From positions 1 through 51,488 of the forward strand of contig JANYDE010000092.1 in assembly GCA_025359915.1 (NCBI GenBank): a stretch of DNA of 51,488 bases. The letters are read 5' to 3'. The notes beneath the pieces were generated by a model. That model saw nothing but the letters and a program-made list of their open reading frames with translations. It did no database searches and was not told the origin of the DNA. The stretch comes from Chamaesiphon sp. 336R_metabinner_41 (GTDB taxonomy: Bacteria; Cyanobacteriota; Cyanobacteriia; Cyanobacteriales; Chamaesiphonaceae). Made by a program: the position numbers and the translations under genes. Shown one piece after another: positions 9,232-20,549 of this stretch. Numbering within the stretch: position 1 is the first letter of the stretch; the number at the start of each line of letters is the position of its first letter.

Positions 9232-9897
9232 ATGAGCGTATTATTAAACGATCTAATGAGGACTTATGAACTAATCGAAGGCGGCAGATTAAAGAAGATC
9301 CTAGTTTGCGTATTTGCACCTGGAGTTCAAGCGGTGGTGGTATTTAGGTTTGGGCATTGGGTGTATTTACAGCCCAAATTCGTGAAAATACTTTTGCAAC
9401 CAATTTATATGGTGCTGAATGGATTAATCCAAGTTTTGTGGGGGATCGAAATTCAACAGTCCGCACAGATCGGATCTGGACTGTATATTGGTCACTTTGG
9501 CGGGATTACGATTTCAGGGGAAGCAATTATTGGTAAGCTGGCTAATATTTCCCAAAATGTGACTATCGGTGTTTCCGGTCAAGGTGAAAAAAGAGGAGTA
9601 CCGATCATTGGTGATAATATTTATATTGCTCCAGGCGCGAGATTATTTGGGAAAATCTCGATCGGCAATAATGTTAAAATTGGTGCTAATGCCGTAATCC
9701 ATAAGGATATCCCAGACGATGTACTGGCAGTAGCATATCCTGGATTTAAAATTATTTCAGGTAGAAACGAGCGAGATTTAGATAGTACTAAAGTTGAATC
9801 ATCGGTGGTGTTAGATGATGCCTTACTTAAGTCTTCACTACAAGATGAGCAGCAAACTCCTCGATCGATTGATGAGAAGCTTGAAATCATTAAGTGA
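9232..9897 (+). CDS. Serine-O-acetyltransferase-like hexapeptide-repeat protein, 221 aa
   Basis: A left-handed beta-helix acyltransferase. Residues of about 80-165 hold isoleucine-led hexapeptide turns (AQIGSG, GEAIIG, ISIGNN, VKIGAN), with GHFGGITISG as the His-containing catalytic loop typical of CysE-like enzymes. A hydrophobic segment (about residues 25-70) precedes it. This layout is seen in polysaccharide-locus acetyltransferases annotated as serine acetyltransferases, so O- or N-acetylation of a sugar is more likely than cysteine synthesis. A polar, acidic tail of about 40 residues follows the helix. The last 8 bp overlap the convergent glycosyltransferase gene. Confidence 0.85.
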   Translation: MSVLLNDLMRTYELIEGGRLKKILVCVFAPGVQAVVVFRFGHWVYLQPKFVKILLQPIYMVLNGLIQVLWGIEIQQSAQIGSGLYIGHFGGITISGEAIIGKLANISQNVTIGVSGQGEKRGVPIIGDNIYIAPGARLFGKISIGNNVKIGANAVIHKDIPDDVLAVAYPGFKIISGRNERDLDSTKVESSVVLDDALLKSSLQDEQQTPRSIDEKLEIIK

Positions 9898-10984
9898 GGA
9901 GATCTAGATAGGCAGTAACTGCACGATCTGTCGAAAAATACATCCCTCGATTGATCGATGCTGTTTGATCGATCGGACTATCCAAGATTTTGATCATCGC
10001 ATCTGCCAAGGCTGGGGCATTCTCGATCGGGACCAGCATACCATATTTGCCACCAGCCAAGATTTCTTGCGGGCCAGAAGGACAATCAGTCGCCACCACG
10101 GAGCAACCACAAGCCATTGCTTCGATCAGCACAGTCGGCAATCCTTCCCAGCGGGATGACAGGACAAACGCGCTGGAATTGTACATATAAGCATAGGGAT
10201 TTGACACGAATCCTGGCAAGGAAACATCTGCCCCGATGCCCAGTTTTTCAATTTCTGCTTCTAACTCGCCCCGCATGTCCCCTTCTCCCAAAATCATTAG
10301 GCGAGCATTTTTTTGCTTTCTGAGGATGCCAAAAGCTTGAATCAGATTCAGGAAATCTTTCTGCGGGGTAAATCGTCCGACTGCCAAAAATACGGGCGGA
10401 TTTCCAGCCTCAAACCACGGGTGTTCCACAGGTATTTTCGCCTTAGCAATCAGATCTGGATCGATCACTGGATTGTAGACTGTTTTGACCGTTCCAGGCT
10501 TAAAACCCAATTCAGTATCCAGATCCTCAGAGACACCTTGAGAGACACCTACAATCGTATTTGCACGGGGATACAGCCACTTCATCATCGGTGGTAACAA
10601 TTGACTGCGGCGTAACTCGGATTTTGCCGCAGACAACGTATCGTGTTCTACCACCACTAACTTAGTTTTACTCCGCGCCAATTCCTTCGCCAGGATTGCC
10701 GCAATATTGGTGTGATTCATGTGCGAAAGCAGTCCGACAGGTTTTGTCTCCTTCAGATACTTTGCCAAGGCTGGAATCGCCTTGGTGACTCTACCTGTGC
10801 CCAAATCAATCAACCGAACTCCCTGCGGTACTTGGTCTAAATAAGGCCCCTCTGCATCAGCCAGCACAAAATCCAATAGCACATCTCGTTCTAACATCCC
10901 TTTGAGCAAATTTAGGGCGACTCGTTCAGCACCACCACCAGCCAATGTTGGCAAAAAGAAAGCAATTCGGCGTTCTTCGGACAT
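9890..10984 (-). CDS. Glycosyltransferase family 4, 364 aa
   Basis: A GT4-type enzyme opening with FFLPTLAGGGAERVALNLL. The C-terminal donor-binding half has VGRFTPQKDF and the EX7E motif EGLPTVLIEAMACG. The gene follows the next upstream glycosyltransferase by 4 bp. The sequence AAGGAGAAATAAGAAGATG places a strong ribosome binding site across the stop codon of that gene, so the two are translationally linked. The acceptor and donor are unknown. The N-terminal glycine loop and donor motif resemble those of the upstream neighbour, suggesting a gene duplication. Confidence 0.93.
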   Translation of the reverse strand: MSEERRIAFFLPTLAGGGAERVALNLLKGMLERDVLLDFVLADAEGPYLDQVPQGVRLIDLGTGRVTKAIPALAKYLKETKPVGLLSHMNHTNIAAILAKELARSKTKLVVVEHDTLSAAKSELRRSQLLPPMMKWLYPRANTIVGVSQGVSEDLDTELGFKPGTVKTVYNPVIDPDLIAKAKIPVEHPWFEAGNPPVFLAVGRFTPQKDFLNLIQAFGILRKQKNARLMILGEGDMRGELEAEIEKLGIGADVSLPGFVSNPYAYMYNSSAFVLSSRWEGLPTVLIEAMACGCSVVATDCPSGPQEILAGGKYGMLVPIENAPALADAMIKILDSPIDQTASINRGMYFSTDRAVTAYLDLLT

Positions 10985-10988
10985 CTTC

Positions 10989-12095
10989 TTATTTCTCCTT
11001 AATTACTTGCTTAACTAACTCTTCCCACATTCCCATCACTCGCGCCAAACTAAACCGTTCGGCTAATTCTGGTGCGGCGGCGGCGATAGCTTGCCGCTGC
11101 GAGGGATCGGACATCAGCCGCTCCATTCCTGCTGCCAATCCTGAGACATCTTCAGTCGGCACCAATACCCCATCTACCCCCTCGCGAATAATCTCCCGTG
11201 GGCCATTCGGACAATCTGTCGAAATCACCGCTAGTCCGCACACCATCGCTTCACAGAGTGCGTTGGGAAAACCCTCAAAGCGGGAAGACATCACGAAGAT
11301 ATCGGCTTGTTTGAGCAATTCATGGGGATTTTTGACTCTACCAGGGAGATGAACGCGATCTGTTAATCCTAATTCCTGGCGTAATGATTCTAATTGAGGG
11401 CGCAATTCGCCTTCCCCTAAAATTGTTAACATCCACTCAGGATAACGATCTTTGAGTTTGGCAAAGGCTTGGAGCAGTAAATCGAAACCTTTTTGGGGTA
11501 CGAGCCGACCGACGGCAATTAGAGATCGATCGCCTGGTAAACTAGGAGCAGATTCGCTGATTTCCATCGGCGGTAATATCACCGGATTCGGCATTACGAA
11601 AATTCGATCTTGCAATTTGGCCGCGAAATAATGCCCTGCACGCTCGGTTTGGACGACAATTCGATCGGCAAATGGATAAGTCCATTGACGCAGAATTTCC
11701 CACATTTTACCAGGGGAAAGCATTGCTGGGTCGTTGCGTTCTGATACTAAAATTGGGATATTTAAGCCACGAGTTGCCAAGATTGCAATGACATTTGTTC
11801 GTTCCATGAAGCTAATTACAGCATCAGGTTTACTCTTGATAATTGCTGTTCGCAGTCCTTGGGTGCTAGTAAAATTATTCCAGATGCCCGTGAGTGGGTT
11901 GGTAGAAGTTGCGGCAATAGCTAGCGGAAGATGATGGATTCGATCGTCAAGATCGTAGAATGGTACTTCACGACCATCATCAAAAGTCAGTAAAGTAATA
12001 TCCCAACCCTTTTCTGCCCAATAATTTGCCATTCTAGACATCACCCGCTCGGCACCTCCAGAACTCAGTGAATGAATAATTAATGTAAGATGCAT
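10989..12095 (-). CDS. Glycosyltransferase family 4, 368 aa
   Basis: A GT4-type enzyme with IIHSLSSGGAERVMSRMA at the N-terminus, VGRLVPQKGF in the C-terminal domain and the EX7E motif EGFPNALCEAMVCG. It is closely related in layout to the gene immediately downstream (4-bp gap) and is probably in one transcript with it. Upstream, about 100 bp with a heptamer repeat and a small hairpin separate it from the flippase gene. Role: transfer of one sugar in exopolysaccharide repeat-unit assembly, on the cytoplasmic face of the membrane. Confidence 0.93.
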   Translation of the reverse strand: MHLTLIIHSLSSGGAERVMSRMANYWAEKGWDITLLTFDDGREVPFYDLDDRIHHLPLAIAATSTNPLTGIWNNFTSTQGLRTAIIKSKPDAVISFMERTNVIAILATRGLNIPILVSERNDPAMLSPGKMWEILRQWTYPFADRIVVQTERAGHYFAAKLQDRIFVMPNPVILPPMEISESAPSLPGDRSLIAVGRLVPQKGFDLLLQAFAKLKDRYPEWMLTILGEGELRPQLESLRQELGLTDRVHLPGRVKNPHELLKQADIFVMSSRFEGFPNALCEAMVCGLAVISTDCPNGPREIIREGVDGVLVPTEDVSGLAAGMERLMSDPSQRQAIAAAAPELAERFSLARVMGMWEELVKQVIKEK

Positions 12096-12195: not shown

Positions 12196-14166
12196 CTAGA
12201 TCTTGTATTTACCTTTGCCGCTTTTAATTTTGGCTTGTTGTTCTGGTGTTAAAATTTCATTCAACTCTTGTTTTTTGGCATCCCGAATGGCTTTCAGCTC
12301 TGCTTTTTGACTAGGTGTTAAATTCAATTGTTTCCAGCCTCGATCGACTGCCTTATTGCGATTTTGCATGGCGATAGTTTTCCGTTGCTGCTCCTTCGTT
12401 AGGACTGTATCTATTTGCTGACGATCTGCAATTAACAATTGCTTAATTTTTTTCTTTTGCTCCGAGCTAAAATTCATCTCTTTCATCATTCCATGACTAA
12501 ATCCTCTCAAAAATAGCATCGATATCCCTTTATCTAATCCACTCATTCCTTCGAGTTTAAATATTTGGGCTGAAGTCAAAATTAATTTTAATTGTTGGAT
12601 ATTTGCTTGCCGAATCGCTCTGAGTTCATTTTTTTGATCTGCACTTAAATTGACACCATCAATCCCTTGCGGAACCGCTGTACGTTGCAGTTGCATCTGT
12701 TTGAATGCTTGATGCTGTTCTGGTGTGAGAATTGTATTGATTTCTTCAAATTTAGATCCCTGTAGTTGGTCGATTTGTTCTTTTTGCTCACCAGTTAGCC
12801 CGAGTTCATCTACAGCTCGGAGATTTCGGACTAAGAAAAATGTTAAAAATACAAATGAAAATATATACACGCAGCTAGTTGACAAGGCAATCCCGACAAC
12901 TCCAAACCATTGCATGAATAAATAGTTCAGGCTAATGTTTACAATTAGATTGCCTGCCGAACCCCACATCATGATTTGGTTATTGCGCATCGCCGAATTT
13001 AAGCGTACCGCGAGCATACTGGCAATATAGAATGGAATTTGCAATGCAAAACAAGATTGAATTTGAGCGACTAACGTAGTATTTTCGGCTGTAAATGAGC
13101 CTCGTTCAAATAAAATCCGCACTATCAGTTCAGACAGCAAAATGATCAGCCCAGTTAAGGGAATAGTCGCGGCAAAGATCAATCCCAGATAGTGCCTAAG
13201 TGAACGCCGAATACTCTTCCAATCATCCAGCGCGACCATTTTTGAAAAGTAGGGAATCACCGCCGTACTTAATGCTGTGGTGGCAATGGTAATCGGTAAC
13301 GCGATGATTCTATTCCCATAAGCTAAAGCGGCAACACTACCCGACGGCAACATTGCCGCCATTGACTGATCTACCAAACCACTACTACACATCAAAAATG
13401 CACCTGCAATCATTGGCGCGTATTGACCTGCAACTTCTCTTAAATTAGCGTCGAATCCATACCATTTTGGGACTAGAGACATCCCTTGTCGCCGCAGCGC
13501 ACCACCAACAACGATCATTTCGAGTAGTTGACCGATAATCATGCCTACCGCTAGGTTAAAGACTCCCCAGCCATCATTCACCAGCAACAAGATCATAGTT
13601 GCCGCCGAAGTTAGCATCGGTGCTAGAGCAACCAAGGCAAATCGCTCTCCCGCATTCAAAACTGCACCCCAAACGGTATTAATACCCGTGAGCAGAATCA
13701 TCGGTGAGACTAGCCACAAGAGGCGATAAGTCAGTTCCAATTTTTCTGGTGCAAATCCACTCGTAAGTGCTGGTAAATAGAGTGGTGCTGTCACTAGAAT
13801 GAAGAATGTGGTGATCAGCAGTAGTCCAATACTCCAAACAGTAGCACCAGCAAACAGTTGTTGCGCATTTTTTCGCCCTTCTTGTTCTCGTACTCTGATA
13901 AAAGTTGGAATCAGGGCGGAATTAAAAGAGCCAGCAATCATGGCAATCAGAACGGAGGGAATTGTGAGAGCAATCAGAAAGGCATCTAGTTCATCTGCTG
14001 TTCCAAACTTCCAAGCAACTACTAGCTCTTTGACAACCGCCAGCACTTTGACAAATAATGTTCCTGCCGCTACAACAATCGCGGCACTAAAAATCTTACT
14101 ATTAACCGAACCCGTAGAAATCGATTGCCAGCGGTTAGTGATTTGTTTCCAGCGACTAGTCTTCAT
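12196..14166 (-). CDS. MurJ/MviN-type flippase fused to a C-terminal LTxxQ-repeat tail, 656 aa
   Basis: Residues 1-450 are a MATE/MOP-superfamily flippase: KVLAVVKELVVAWKFG near the N-terminus, many hydrophobic helices, and GSFTAENT before the last helices. In this locus it more likely flips a lipid-linked polysaccharide unit than lipid II, though MurJ activity is possible. Residues 457-643 form a soluble tail with four units. Each has an LTxxQ-like pair: LTGEQ 457/LTPEQ 480, LSADQ 507/LTSAQ 530, FSSEQ 566/LTKEQ 589, LTPSQ 616/LTPEQ 639. The two motifs are exactly 23 residues apart every time. LTxxQ pairs mark Spy/CpxP periplasmic chaperones. Positive charges after the last helix (VRNLR) suggest the tail may be cytoplasmic instead. 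The frame is continuous, so this is a real fusion. The neighbouring paralogue lacks the tail. Confidence 0.93.
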   Translation of the reverse strand: MKTSRWKQITNRWQSISTGSVNSKIFSAAIVVAAGTLFVKVLAVVKELVVAWKFGTADELDAFLIALTIPSVLIAMIAGSFNSALIPTFIRVREQEGRKNAQQLFAGATVWSIGLLLITTFFILVTAPLYLPALTSGFAPEKLELTYRLLWLVSPMILLTGINTVWGAVLNAGERFALVALAPMLTSAATMILLLVNDGWGVFNLAVGMIIGQLLEMIVVGGALRRQGMSLVPKWYGFDANLREVAGQYAPMIAGAFLMCSSGLVDQSMAAMLPSGSVAALAYGNRIIALPITIATTALSTAVIPYFSKMVALDDWKSIRRSLRHYLGLIFAATIPLTGLIILLSELIVRILFERGSFTAENTTLVAQIQSCFALQIPFYIASMLAVRLNSAMRNNQIMMWGSAGNLIVNISLNYLFMQWFGVVGIALSTSCVYIFSFVFLTFFLVRNLRAVDELGLTGEQKEQIDQLQGSKFEEINTILTPEQHQAFKQMQLQRTAVPQGIDGVNLSADQKNELRAIRQANIQQLKLILTSAQIFKLEGMSGLDKGISMLFLRGFSHGMMKEMNFSSEQKKKIKQLLIADRQQIDTVLTKEQQRKTIAMQNRNKAVDRGWKQLNLTPSQKAELKAIRDAKKQELNEILTPEQQAKIKSGKGKYKI

Positions 14167-14332: not shown

Positions 14333-15751
14333 TCAAAGTAGCTCTCCACTATCTGATTTCGGAGTTGTCTTCTTTATACTCAGACCCAGATCGTCTACTT
14401 TTTTGAGATTTCGGAGTAAGAAAAATGATAGAAATAGAAATGAGAACATATACACGCAACTAGTTGACAAGGCAATCCCAGCCACTCCGAACCAAGACAT
14501 AAACAAGTAGTTCAACCCGATATTGACAATCAGATTACCTGCCGAACCCCACATCATAACTTTATTATTTTGCATCGCCGAATTGAGGCGGACTGCTAAA
14601 ACACTGGCAATATAAAAAGGAATCTGCAACGCAAAACAAGCTTGAATCAGAGCCACTGTCTGAGTATTTTCGGCGGTAAATGAACCTCGTTGTAGGAGCA
14701 TCCGTACAATCTGTTCGGAAAATAAAATTATCACTCCGGCTAGAGGGATTGTGACAGCAAAAATCAATCCCATATAGTAATTAAGCGACCGCCGAATCCC
14801 TTTCCAATCGTCAAGCGCGACCATTTGGGAAAAGTAGGGAATAACTGCCGTACTCAAGGCTGTTGTGGCAATGGTAATCGGTAATGAAATGACTCTCTCG
14901 CCATAGCCTAAAGCTGAAATACTACCAGATGGTAACATAGCAGCCATCGATCGATCTACCAAACCACTACTACACATTAAAAATGCACCAGCAATCATTG
15001 GGGCGTACTGACCTGCTACCTGTTTTAAGTTATCATCAAATCCATGCCATTTAGGTATTAATGAAATTCCTTGCTTTTGGAGCGTTTTACCGACAATAAT
15101 CATCTCCAATAATTGTCCGACTACCATTCCAATCGATAAATTAAAGACTCCCCAATCTTTCATTACCAACAATAAGATCATGGTGACAGCAGGAGTTAAA
15201 ACTGGTGCCAAAGCCACTAAAGCAAATCGCTCTCCAGCATTCAAAATAGCACCCCAAACTGTGTTAATCCCTGTGAGTAAAATCATGGGTGAAATCACCC
15301 ACAATAGTCGATCTGTCAGGGCTACTTTTTCGGCAGAGAATCCACCAGTAATTAATGGCAAATAAAGCGGTGCTGCCAATAGCAGGAAAAATGTTGTAGT
15401 TAACAGCAATCCGACGCTCCAAATTGTGGCACCAGAAAATAGTTGTTGAGCGGCACGTTTGCCTTCTTGCTCTCGGACTTTAATGTAAGTTGGAATCAGA
15501 GCTGCATTAAAAGAGTCAGCGACGATATTGATGATCACTGACGGAATGATTAAGGCAATTAGGAATGCATCTAATTCATCCGCCGTTCCAAATTGGGCGG
15601 CAACTACGAGTTCTTTGACGACAGCAATTACTTTTACAAATGCTGTCCCCCCTGCAACAATCATCGCTGCACTAAAAATTTTTCGATTAATCGAACCAGT
15701 CGTTACTGATTCCCAGAGTTTCGCAATTTTTTGCCAGCGATTTGTCTTCAT
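14333..15751 (-). CDS. MurJ/MviN-type flippase, 472 aa
   Basis: A close paralogue of the gene just downstream, colinear over about 450 residues: KVIAVVKELVVAAQFG, GERFALVALAPVLTP, MCSSGLVDRSMAAMLPSGS and GSFTAENTQ. It has many hydrophobic helices and ends 20 residues after the last one with a short polar tail (LGLSIKK...), exactly where the paralogue enters its LTxxQ tail. Both genes are on the minus strand with a 166-bp gap. Possible roles are lipid II flipping, with the genome's other copy elsewhere, or Wzx-like export of polysaccharide units. The pair probably arose by tandem duplication. Confidence 0.92.
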   Translation of the reverse strand: MKTNRWQKIAKLWESVTTGSINRKIFSAAMIVAGGTAFVKVIAVVKELVVAAQFGTADELDAFLIALIIPSVIINIVADSFNAALIPTYIKVREQEGKRAAQQLFSGATIWSVGLLLTTTFFLLLAAPLYLPLITGGFSAEKVALTDRLLWVISPMILLTGINTVWGAILNAGERFALVALAPVLTPAVTMILLLVMKDWGVFNLSIGMVVGQLLEMIIVGKTLQKQGISLIPKWHGFDDNLKQVAGQYAPMIAGAFLMCSSGLVDRSMAAMLPSGSISALGYGERVISLPITIATTALSTAVIPYFSQMVALDDWKGIRRSLNYYMGLIFAVTIPLAGVIILFSEQIVRMLLQRGSFTAENTQTVALIQACFALQIPFYIASVLAVRLNSAMQNNKVMMWGSAGNLIVNIGLNYLFMSWFGVAGIALSTSCVYMFSFLFLSFFLLRNLKKVDDLGLSIKKTTPKSDSGELL

Positions 15752-15850: not shown

Positions 15851-16858
15851 TTAAACTTGATAGTAATCACGATACCATTCAACAAATCGTTGGACACCTA
15901 CTTCGATCGAGGTATCGGGTTTGAATCCAACATCTCTGGTCAGATCTGACACGTCAGCATAAGTAATTGGTACGTCCCCAGGCTGAATTGGCAAGATGTT
16001 TTTGGTGGCTTCAATTCCCAAACTTTTCTCTAATACTTCGATAAAGTACATTAGTTCGATCGGTTGATTATTGCCAATGTTATAAATTCGGTAGGGAGCT
16101 TTGCTAGTAGCGGGATCTGGAGCAGTACCTACCCAATCAGGATTTGGTTCAGGAATCTTGTGCATGACCTTAATTACGCCTTCGACAATATCATCAACAT
16201 AGGTAAAATCTCGTTGCATTTTGCCATAATTAAAGACATCGATCGGTTTGCCTGCTAAGATTGCTTTCGTAAAGAGCATCGGAGCCATATCTGGACGACC
16301 CCAAGGGCCATAAACTGTAAAGAATCTCAATCCAGTGGTGGGAATCCGATAGAGATGGCTATAGCTATGCGCCAATAATTCATTAGCTTTTTTAGTAGCT
16401 GCATACAGGCTAATGGGATGATCGACATTATCATGAACTGAAAAGGGGATTTTGGTGTTCGCGCCATACACGGAGCTGGAGGAAGCATACACTAGGTGTT
16501 TGATTCGATAATGGCGACAGCCTTCTAAAATATTGCCAAAGCCAGTAACATTGCTATCGAGATAAGCACGGGGATTTTGGAGTGAGTAACGCACGCCAGC
16601 TTGCGCACCTAAGTTAATTACGCTCTCAAATTCATACCGCTCGAATAATTGTTCGATCTTTTCTCGATCTGCCAGATCGATTTTATGAAAGGTAAAATCG
16701 TCTTTGTCTGTTAGTTGGGCGAGTCGATCTTCTTTGAGGCTGACATCATAATAGTCATTGAGACTATCAATCCCAATTACTTGATGTCCTTCGCTTAATA
16801 AGCGTTGAGCTAAATGAAACCCAATAAATCCCGCTGCACCAGTTACTAAAATTTGCAT
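15851..16858 (-). CDS. NAD-dependent UDP-glucuronate-4-epimerase-like enzyme, 335 aa
   Basis: An extended short-chain dehydrogenase. The Rossmann motif [11 protein letters not shown] is at residues 7-17, followed by [17 protein letters not shown], which is characteristic of the UDP-glucuronate 4-epimerase (CapI/GAE) group. The catalytic Ser is in YASSSSVYG and the YxxxK pair in [11 protein letters not shown]. The usual [15 protein letters not shown] active-site loop is intact. The product would be UDP-galacturonate, a precursor for the surface polysaccharide assembled by the neighbouring genes. Length is normal. It starts at ATG 16858 with an AT-rich 200-bp leader upstream. Confidence 0.93.
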
Positions 16859-19136: not shown

Positions 19137-20549
19137 TTACTCGTTCGGAGGTAGCAACGGACGATTGTTGCGAGGAGGGAGATTTCGTCGAGTACGTCTT
19201 GGTGGTAAAGTCGATTCACTAGGCGGTAATAGCCGCTGCTCTGGCGTTGTGCCAATCGCTCGAATGTTCCGCGCTGGTGGTAAAATCATTCGTCCATTGG
19301 TGGGTGCTTGTGCCATGCGGAAATTATCAGCCGAGTATTTGAGGTACCATTTTTCACTAGTATTCATCGCGGCTAATAAGGCAAACATCGAGAGAATGTA
19401 CCTCTCCTCCAAAACGTTGTGGCTAAAGATGCCCCACAAAGTCATAAAAACAGCGAAACACACAATCTGGACAGTAGGTTGACCTTTATTTCGCCAGACG
19501 ACGGCTAAGATTGCTCCAGGCAAAAACAGAATACCAATGATCCCATGATCTGCCATGTAGAACAGATACATGTTGTGGGTGGATACGTCAGAAACAGTCC
19601 ACTTATAAGTTGATGCCAATCCATTACCCCAATAGGGGTGATTGCTAAACAGGATAAAAGCATAGCCGACTACCGCTTTTCGCTCCTTGGCAGAATCATC
19701 CTCCAGGGAAGGATTTTGAAACTGTTCTAGTCGATCTAAAACGTCCCAACTGGCTCCATCAGATCCGCCAAAATAATCGGCAATTAGCTTGATGGGATTG
19801 ATTAATGCTAATGCTATAACTAAGACAAATACCGATGCAACTACTGTCCGTCTTCTTTCGGAGAGTACTTTGGCAATCGTCAAAAATAATGTACAGAGCA
19901 GCCAGCCTAAGATCGAACCTCGCGAAAATGTCGCACCGACACCCGCAAGGACAAAGAACATGTAGAACCAGCGGAACTCTTTCTTGATTACATCAATGGT
20001 AAATATTAATCCCAAGATCAATGCGCAACCTGCTTTGTTGGGATTGATATAAAATCCGGCGGGACGACCAGTATTTAGCTCGCTAAAGAATTTAGGAACG
20101 GCCAGTTCGTAGAAGTCCGTAGCCACTGACATTACAACTACGACGATGATGGCATATTTAATATGTTTTAAGTTTTTTTGCTCGTACAGAATGTACATCA
20201 AGCAAATGAACATAATCGAGGTAATTCTGAGCTTGAATTCCTTCATTGCGGCTTCATCACCATTGATTGTTGCTAATGAAAGCATCGATATCAATGCGTA
20301 GAAAAGCATCCACAGTACTAGTGGCTTGGGGATGGTCTTAATTTTTGGGAAAAATGGGATAGCTAAGAAAACAAAAGCCCAAATCCATATGAGTGGAAGT
20401 ACCGGAAGAATACCTGCTGTAAACAGGTAGTCAGGAAGATCTGAGAAAAACAAAAATGTTGCAACTATCGATAAAATATATTGATATCGATCGAGAAAAT
20501 CTTGCAGCTTGTTTCTTTGAGGTTTGAGTTGAAATAGGGTGAGTGACAT
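19137..20549 (-). CDS. O-antigen ligase/polymerase (Wzy-like) family membrane protein, 470 aa
   Basis: An inner-membrane protein with about ten hydrophobic helices. A large loop (about residues 255-325) follows the helix LINPIKLIADYFGG and contains RLEQFQNPSLEDD, the Arg/Glu-rich region typical of the Wzy_C (O-antigen ligase) domain; SNHPYWGNGLAST and DVSTHNMYLFYMADHG follow. The role would be polymerising polysaccharide units or ligating them to a carrier in the periplasm. The last about 60 residues are not membrane-like. They are Pro/Arg-rich with five LPP tripeptides (ILPPARN, RLLPPSE, TLPPRR, NLPPRN, LLPPNE). That tail is unusual for the family and may be a low-complexity linker or binding segment. 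Which of polymerase or ligase is correct cannot be decided. Confidence 0.88.
   Translation of the reverse strand: MSLTLFQLKPQRNKLQDFLDRYQYILSIVATFLFFSDLPDYLFTAGILPVLPLIWIWAFVFLAIPFFPKIKTIPKPLVLWMLFYALISMLSLATINGDEAAMKEFKLRITSIMFICLMYILYEQKNLKHIKYAIIVVVVMSVATDFYELAVPKFFSELNTGRPAGFYINPNKAGCALILGLIFTIDVIKKEFRWFYMFFVLAGVGATFSRGSILGWLLCTLFLTIAKVLSERRRTVVASVFVLVIALALINPIKLIADYFGGSDGASWDVLDRLEQFQNPSLEDDSAKERKAVVGYAFILFSNHPYWGNGLASTYKWTVSDVSTHNMYLFYMADHGIIGILFLPGAILAVVWRNKGQPTVQIVCFAVFMTLWGIFSHNVLEERYILSMFALLAAMNTSEKWYLKYSADNFRMAQAPTNGRMILPPARNIRAIGTTPEQRLLPPSESTLPPRRTRRNLPPRNNRPLLPPNE

Follow-up and report, generated by a model that had tools for sequence, protein, structure and literature searches.

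The window, the whole 51,488-nucleotide stretch of Chamaesiphon DNA analysed here, holds a genuine fusion of a flippase and a Spy/CpxP-family (LTXXQ) domain in one gene. Known domains are here combined in a new way, and two genomes carry the combination. Among the matches listed in a search of open-licence PubMed Central titles and abstract openings, we found no published description of a flippase–LTXXQ fusion. The best explanation, to which we give about an even chance, is a polysaccharide flippase whose tail, relocated from a secreted family, would serve as a cytoplasmic docking or regulatory module. The gene is organized as follows.

12196..14166, minus strand: fusion gene, 656 aa, MurJ/Wzx-type flippase plus four LTxxQ-pair units (open reading frame; Pfam MurJ and LTXXQ matches; homologue in a second genome, G005)
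12814..14166, minus strand: flippase part, residues 1–451, taken as 12 membrane helices (TIGR01695; alignment to solved MurJ chains; K/R counts)
12199..12813, minus strand: C-terminal tail, residues 452–656, four LTxxQ-pair units (PF07813; profile match to Spy 3o39; helical model)
12655..12804, minus strand: unit 1, residues 455–504, motifs at 457 and 480 (motif positions, unit comparison)
12544..12654, minus strand: unit 2, residues 505–541, motifs at 507 and 530 (motif positions, unit comparison)
12478..12543, minus strand: insert between units 2 and 3, residues 542–563 (motif distances, conservation)
12328..12477, minus strand: unit 3, residues 564–613, motifs at 566 and 589 (motif positions, unit comparison)
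12217..12327, minus strand: unit 4, residues 614–650, motifs at 616 and 639 (motif positions, conservation)

The tail contains eight LTxxQ-like motifs arranged as four pairs, with 23 residues between the motifs of every pair. Units start at residues 457, 507, 566 and 616, giving steps of 50, 59 and 50. An earlier, sequence-only reading of this DNA had reported a flippase fused to four such units with exactly these spacings, and all of them were measured as it stated. When the tail was shuffled 20,000 times, the motif count never exceeded four (mean 0.36) versus the eight observed, and 23-spaced pairs never exceeded one versus the observed four. Pfam MurJ (PF03023) matches residues 52–455 at 237 bits (cut-off 27.4), and TIGR01695 matches residues 26–453 at 247.1 bits (cut-off 235.55). 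The C-terminal LTXXQ match (PF07813, cut-off 24.3) that the earlier reading had proposed to look for scores 28.1 bits on the whole protein and 39 bits on the tail alone; the fusion of the second genome scores 36.9 and 42.5 bits. Because a six-frame PF07813 search of the window's genome returned three matches at E≤0.001 without the fusion among them, the LTXXQ signal in the whole gene is best described as modest.

A frameshift joining two genes, the objection that the sequence-only reading had raised against itself, is excluded because a second Chamaesiphon genome (G005) carries a homologous, full-length fusion at 79% identity. In that genome the fusion sits beside an unfused paralogue, followed by a Wzy_C gene. 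At the nucleotide level the two fusions share 75% identity across the flippase half and 74% across the tail, and their junction is the same. We rejected an artefact (two genes joined by frameshift, chimera or misassembly) as next to impossible, because the same junction recurs at 74–75% nucleotide identity. Synonymous sites are saturated in both halves (YN00 dS 1.10 for the flippase and 1.08 for the tail; NG86 dS 1.37 and 3.67), making these estimates and those of dN (0.13 for the flippase, 0.15–0.16 for the tail) rough. The values suggest that the flippase half and the tail half are both under purifying selection. Within the tail, conservation between the two fusions is highest in unit 4 (84%) and lowest in the insert at 542–563 (64%).

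Our surveys covered cyanobacterial genomes, and in those sampled the fusion is lineage-restricted. It occurs in two of the nine genomes of the genus Chamaesiphon. With at most three candidates scored per genome, and misses therefore possible, an order-wide sample yielded 54 flippase rows from 52 of 388 genomes at E≤1e-60, and no row other than the two fusions was longer than 503 aa; a class-wide sample scored in the same way yielded 15 rows from 14 of 388 genomes at E≤1e-40, of which the window's row alone continues through the tail. So narrow a distribution, the retention of a tail-less paralogue alongside and the sufficiency of a single origin would suit a near-neutral appendage, captured in frame by accident, folding harmlessly and lacking a specific role. 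We consider this unlikely: dN is low across the tail despite synonymous saturation, and all eight motifs are retained in both fusion-bearing species.

The family to which the tail belongs is known for work outside the cytoplasm. Spy/CpxP-type proteins are periplasmic, which counts against a cytoplasmic tail, and to our knowledge the Spy fold is known from the periplasm only. Spy is described as a small protein of the periplasm whose dimer forms a cradle, basic and partly hydrophobic, through which clients are bound (passages of PMC8144458). A model of our tail built from six sequences is all helical (pLDDT 77). Foldseek gave no match to the model at E≤0.001. When Foldseek candidates were aligned with VIA-align, the first 14 rows were Spy, STV, CnrX and CpxP chains at Z 5.2–7.2, values common among helical proteins. 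These matches span 74–92 residues, covering about residues 56–172 of the tail model, and unrelated helical proteins appear from Z 5.2 downward, tied with the lower Spy-family rows. A profile of the tail and its free relatives matches Spy 3o39 at E=0.0005, and the single protein does so only at E=0.05. Taken together, the sequence and the modelled structure favour a Spy-like domain, chiefly through units 2 and 3 of the model, without amounting to proof. The tail resembles Spy and CpxP of Escherichia coli and CnrX of Cupriavidus in its LTxxQ motifs, its 3o39 profile match and its model alignment, and is unlike them in having four closely spaced pairs, a membrane tether and a predicted cytoplasmic location.

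Free four-unit LTxxQ proteins are widespread in this lineage. They occur in eight of the nine Chamaesiphon genomes, the one without (G001) being 82% complete, and in both searched genomes of a second, sister genus of the family; the window's genome has two, on contigs C152 and C47. Eleven such relatives are 243–314 aa long and begin with a hydrophobic stretch that, judged by eye, is signal-peptide-like. All five that were tested pass the PF07813 cut-off. Within the genus and its sister genus, free proteins match the tail most closely, at 35–44% identity over its length (38–47% in another comparison). The 23-residue spacing is present in 11 of 11, so it is not special to the fusion. We compared units among 13 proteins (11 free, two fusions), setting unit starts by hand from the alignment, and in every one of them the highest identities paired unit 1 with 3 and unit 2 with 4. 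Since free relatives and fusions share this pairing, a two-unit block was doubled before the fusion arose. The duplication suggested by the earlier reading thus held up, except as an event of the fusion itself, and both it and the spacing are older than the fusion. Doubling inside the fusion was rejected, since the pattern is shared by all 11 free relatives and since tandem genes of an uncultured cyanobacterium (L067:217-669 and 822-1274) encode two LTxxQ proteins of 150 aa with two units apiece. This tandem pair plausibly illustrates the condition that preceded the four-unit protein.

The free proteins are like the tail in their four pairs, spacing and closest units, and unlike it in their signal-peptide-like start and in having no flippase attached. 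Other measurements differ by degree. Across the insert, the motif distance is 36 in the fusion versus 22–34 in the 11 free relatives; at least six histidines lie in the matched part of 5 of 11 free relatives and two in the fusions; and net charge is +12 to +27 in the free relatives (n=11) versus +10 in the tail. A class-wide search with the tail profile, scoring at most eight candidates per genome with misses possible, found a match at E≤1e-8 in 215 of 388 genomes; among the matches listed, no row but the window's has an open frame longer than 348 aa. By spacing and unit pairing, the tail is kin to the four-unit LTxxQ proteins that the lineage itself secretes. In a tail tree the two fusion tails group together (100/100) on a long branch and join the free copy on C47 with support of 79/91 and long branches, an uncertain placement that makes C47 at most a candidate source.

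Loci of the free proteins had features of their own. A sensor-histidine-kinase-like gene adjoins the free four-unit protein at 9 of 11 loci (L034, L037-L042, L044, L045), and the one such neighbour tested gave a HisKA_3 match, an arrangement that recalls CpxP with CpxA. The window's genome also encodes a separate 170-aa LTxxQ-type protein (L056, G000:C46:20500-25500) beside sigma-factor-like and small membrane-protein genes (named by eye), resembling in layout an extracytoplasmic stress module.

We turn to the flippase and the genes that surround it, which include the following.

9890..12095, minus strand: two group-1 glycosyltransferase genes (9890–10984 and 10989–12095), downstream of the fusion (PF00534, 129.7 and 150.8 bits)
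14333..15751, minus strand: unfused paralogous flippase, 472 aa (alignment; flippase tree)
15851..16858, minus strand: NAD-dependent sugar epimerase/dehydratase (PF01370, 194.7 bits)
19137..20549, minus strand: Wzy_C-type O-antigen polymerase/ligase (PF04932, 50.3 bits)

The unfused paralogue aligns with the fusion up to residue 459 at 76% and then runs on for 13 unrelated residues; the earlier observation that it ends exactly where the tail begins is right to within a few residues, but not exactly. We built a 19-row flippase tree that included ten unfused homologues, leaving out G153 (two stops) and G273 (a 182-residue piece), and five canonical MurJ outgroup rows chosen by hand. The fusion pair and the paralogue pair are sisters (support 99/97 and 99/96) joined at 100/100, which places the duplication that gave rise to them before the split of the two host species. 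Both lie inside a cyanobacterial flippase clade whose ten unfused members are 450–494 aa long, and this clade is split 100/100 from the five canonical MurJ rows, with a branch length of 1.93 either side of the root between them.

The fusion had been called an otherwise standard MurJ before its tail. It does pass the PF03023 and TIGR01695 cut-offs, as a MurJ lipid II flippase should, and profiles place it with MurJ, not Wzx; the unfused paralogue, at 229.5 bits, is below the TIGR01695 cut-off of 235.55. Unlike MurJ, it sits in a separate clade, and the TIGR01695 match stops at profile position 434 of 506. Its alignment to solved MurJ chains reaches residue 446 (409 of 475 in MurJTa). MurJ helices 13–14 are described as additional to a 12-helix core (in passages of PMC6465408), and we saw no sign of them in the fusion, judging by the extent of the TIGR01695 match, by a hydropathy scan that places no helix in the tail and by the 450–494-aa length of the ten unfused homologues. 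Cavity arginines R18, R24 and R255 are reported to be important in MurJ (passages of PMC9973255). In the fusion these MurJTa positions are K40, K46 and R286, so that charge is kept while two of three residues are changed. The five canonical cyanobacterial rows read K, R and L/M, the third perhaps through an alignment fault. Position R24 sets the fusion apart from these rows, which keep arginine there; because the canonical rows also have K at R18 and L/M at R255, the comparison as a whole does not separate the groups cleanly. On tree and profile evidence, the fusion flippase is not a standard MurJ.

Gene context points to a role in polysaccharide export. Four group-1 glycosyltransferases lie between 7888 and 22979 in the window, further neighbours include an asparagine-synthase gene and a hexapeptide transferase, and the Wzy_C gene adjoins the flippase pair in the second genome as well. 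Because Wzy_C, glycosyltransferase and epimerase genes surround it, the flippase more likely serves exopolysaccharide export in the manner of Wzx than flips lipid II. The fusion is like WzxE in its probable 12 helices, its predicted cytoplasmic C-terminus near the lumen entrance and its Wzy-type cluster; it is unlike WzxE in being assigned to MurJ by profiles and in its 205-residue C-terminal domain.

Canonical MurJ was not found in the window's assembly, which raises the idea that the fusion took over lipid II flipping in a host that lacks the usual enzyme. A transporter-like gene that usually neighbours MurJ is missing from the assembly as well (best match 23% identity). We compared MurJ loci among relatives, with neighbour names assigned by eye. 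Contigs C34 (arranged as in G005) and C22 (as in G002, G004 and G006) run on without MurJ where relatives keep it, and contig C102 ends ~600 bases past a kinase-like gene that adjoins MurJ in G003 and G007. The absence is most likely an assembly gap at the end of C102. We rejected the fusion as a replacement for a lost MurJ, and regard a takeover of lipid II flipping as very improbable, since the gap is the simpler account and G005 keeps canonical MurJ together with the fusion. Two side observations were made in these assemblies. In another genome of the genus, MurJ-like pieces are spread over two open frames, of which one contains a stop codon (G006:C1:1776031-1776805). A ~30-base interspersed repeat occurs on many contigs of the window's assembly (G000), where 76 of the 79 matches to one query were due to it; at many sites it matches both strands, as expected of an abundant palindrome-like repeat.

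As to the side of the membrane, the tail follows the last flippase helix without a signal peptide of its own. Plain hydropathy scanning finds 10 or 11 helices only. Ahead of the tail, a full-length AlphaFold model has 11 long helices, and the final one (398–452, 55 residues) could accommodate two; the model was set aside as too poor (pLDDT 51). WzxE is described as having 12 helices with both termini cytoplasmic, and its activity as needing a cluster of C-terminal arginines that lies where the lumen opens to the cytoplasm (both in passages of PMC11706664). We counted lysines and arginines on the two sides of the fusion flippase using 12 helices set by hand from the weak model, hydropathy and alignment, and obtained 22 versus 3; the same bias appeared in 14 of 14 clade members. 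This distribution favours both termini inside. WzxE homology and charge make a cytoplasmic tail, close to where substrate enters, the likelier arrangement.

The sequence-only reading had put forward a periplasmic chaperone or sensor tethered to the flippase and listed a cytoplasmic use of the fold last; the evidence disfavours the former and leans to the side proposed in the latter. Were the tail outside the membrane, it would chaperone exported material in the way of Spy/CpxP or sense envelope stress on its account. The free relatives do look secreted, and an odd number of helices, which hydropathy alone allows, would put the tail outside. The MurJ alignment and WzxE topology indicate 12 helices, and the charge bias shared across the clade points the same way, so we hold the periplasmic placement to be quite improbable.

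A cytoplasmic tail could act through its charge. As an electrostatic funnel, it would draw in the lipid carrier's pyrophosphate at the mouth on the cytoplasmic side, extending the arginine cluster that WzxE is described as requiring at the corresponding place. The tail is indeed basic, with 34 K/R versus 24 D/E. The free relatives are more basic still, which argues that the charge was inherited rather than gained, and the kept LTxxQ motifs suggest a folded, protein-binding domain. We think a funnel of this kind unlikely.

We favour a docking or regulatory tail, and surmise the following course of events. A MurJ/Wzx (MOP) superfamily flippase, most likely with 12 helices, would move a lipid-linked exopolysaccharide repeat unit. 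In the common ancestor of the two host species, one of two tandem flippase duplicates would have gained, in frame, the mature part of the lineage's own secreted four-unit LTxxQ protein. Lacking a signal peptide and following the final helix, the LTxxQ domain would come to lie in the cytoplasm beside the substrate entrance, at the point of arrival of substrate and synthetic enzymes. There it may form a helical docking or regulatory module whose Spy-like surface binds a partner protein, with a glycosyltransferase, a regulator or the neighbouring flippase as candidates. Partner binding by the tail would couple flipping to synthesis. The polysaccharide substrate and the cytoplasmic side have fair support from homology and charge; docking or regulation by the tail we infer only, by analogy. 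A bolder version, which we put forward tentatively and think somewhat less than evenly probable, is a switch of compartment, in which a Spy/CpxP-family domain, taken from a secreted envelope-stress protein, has become a cytoplasmic client-binding cradle at the flippase mouth, gating or organizing substrate entry.

Mycobacterium tuberculosis MviN, a MurJ-family flippase with a pseudokinase domain inside the cell, provides the closest precedent. That domain is described as dispensable for peptidoglycan synthesis and as recruiting the inhibitory protein FhaA (passages of PMC12599244). On that description, MviN and the fusion are alike in joining a MurJ-family membrane protein to an added protein-binding domain, and unlike in that the MviN domain is an FhaA-recruiting pseudokinase, unrelated to LTXXQ.

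MurJ/Wzx superfamily flippases control the exit of cell-wall and slime sugars, and their regulation from inside the cell is poorly known. With the fusion, its unfused twin and free secreted relatives in one genome, Chamaesiphon offers a natural comparison for the role of the added domain and for a Spy fold in the cytoplasm. If the switch of compartment is true, the fusion would represent a cytoplasmic use of the Spy fold and a new mode of regulating a MOP flippase.
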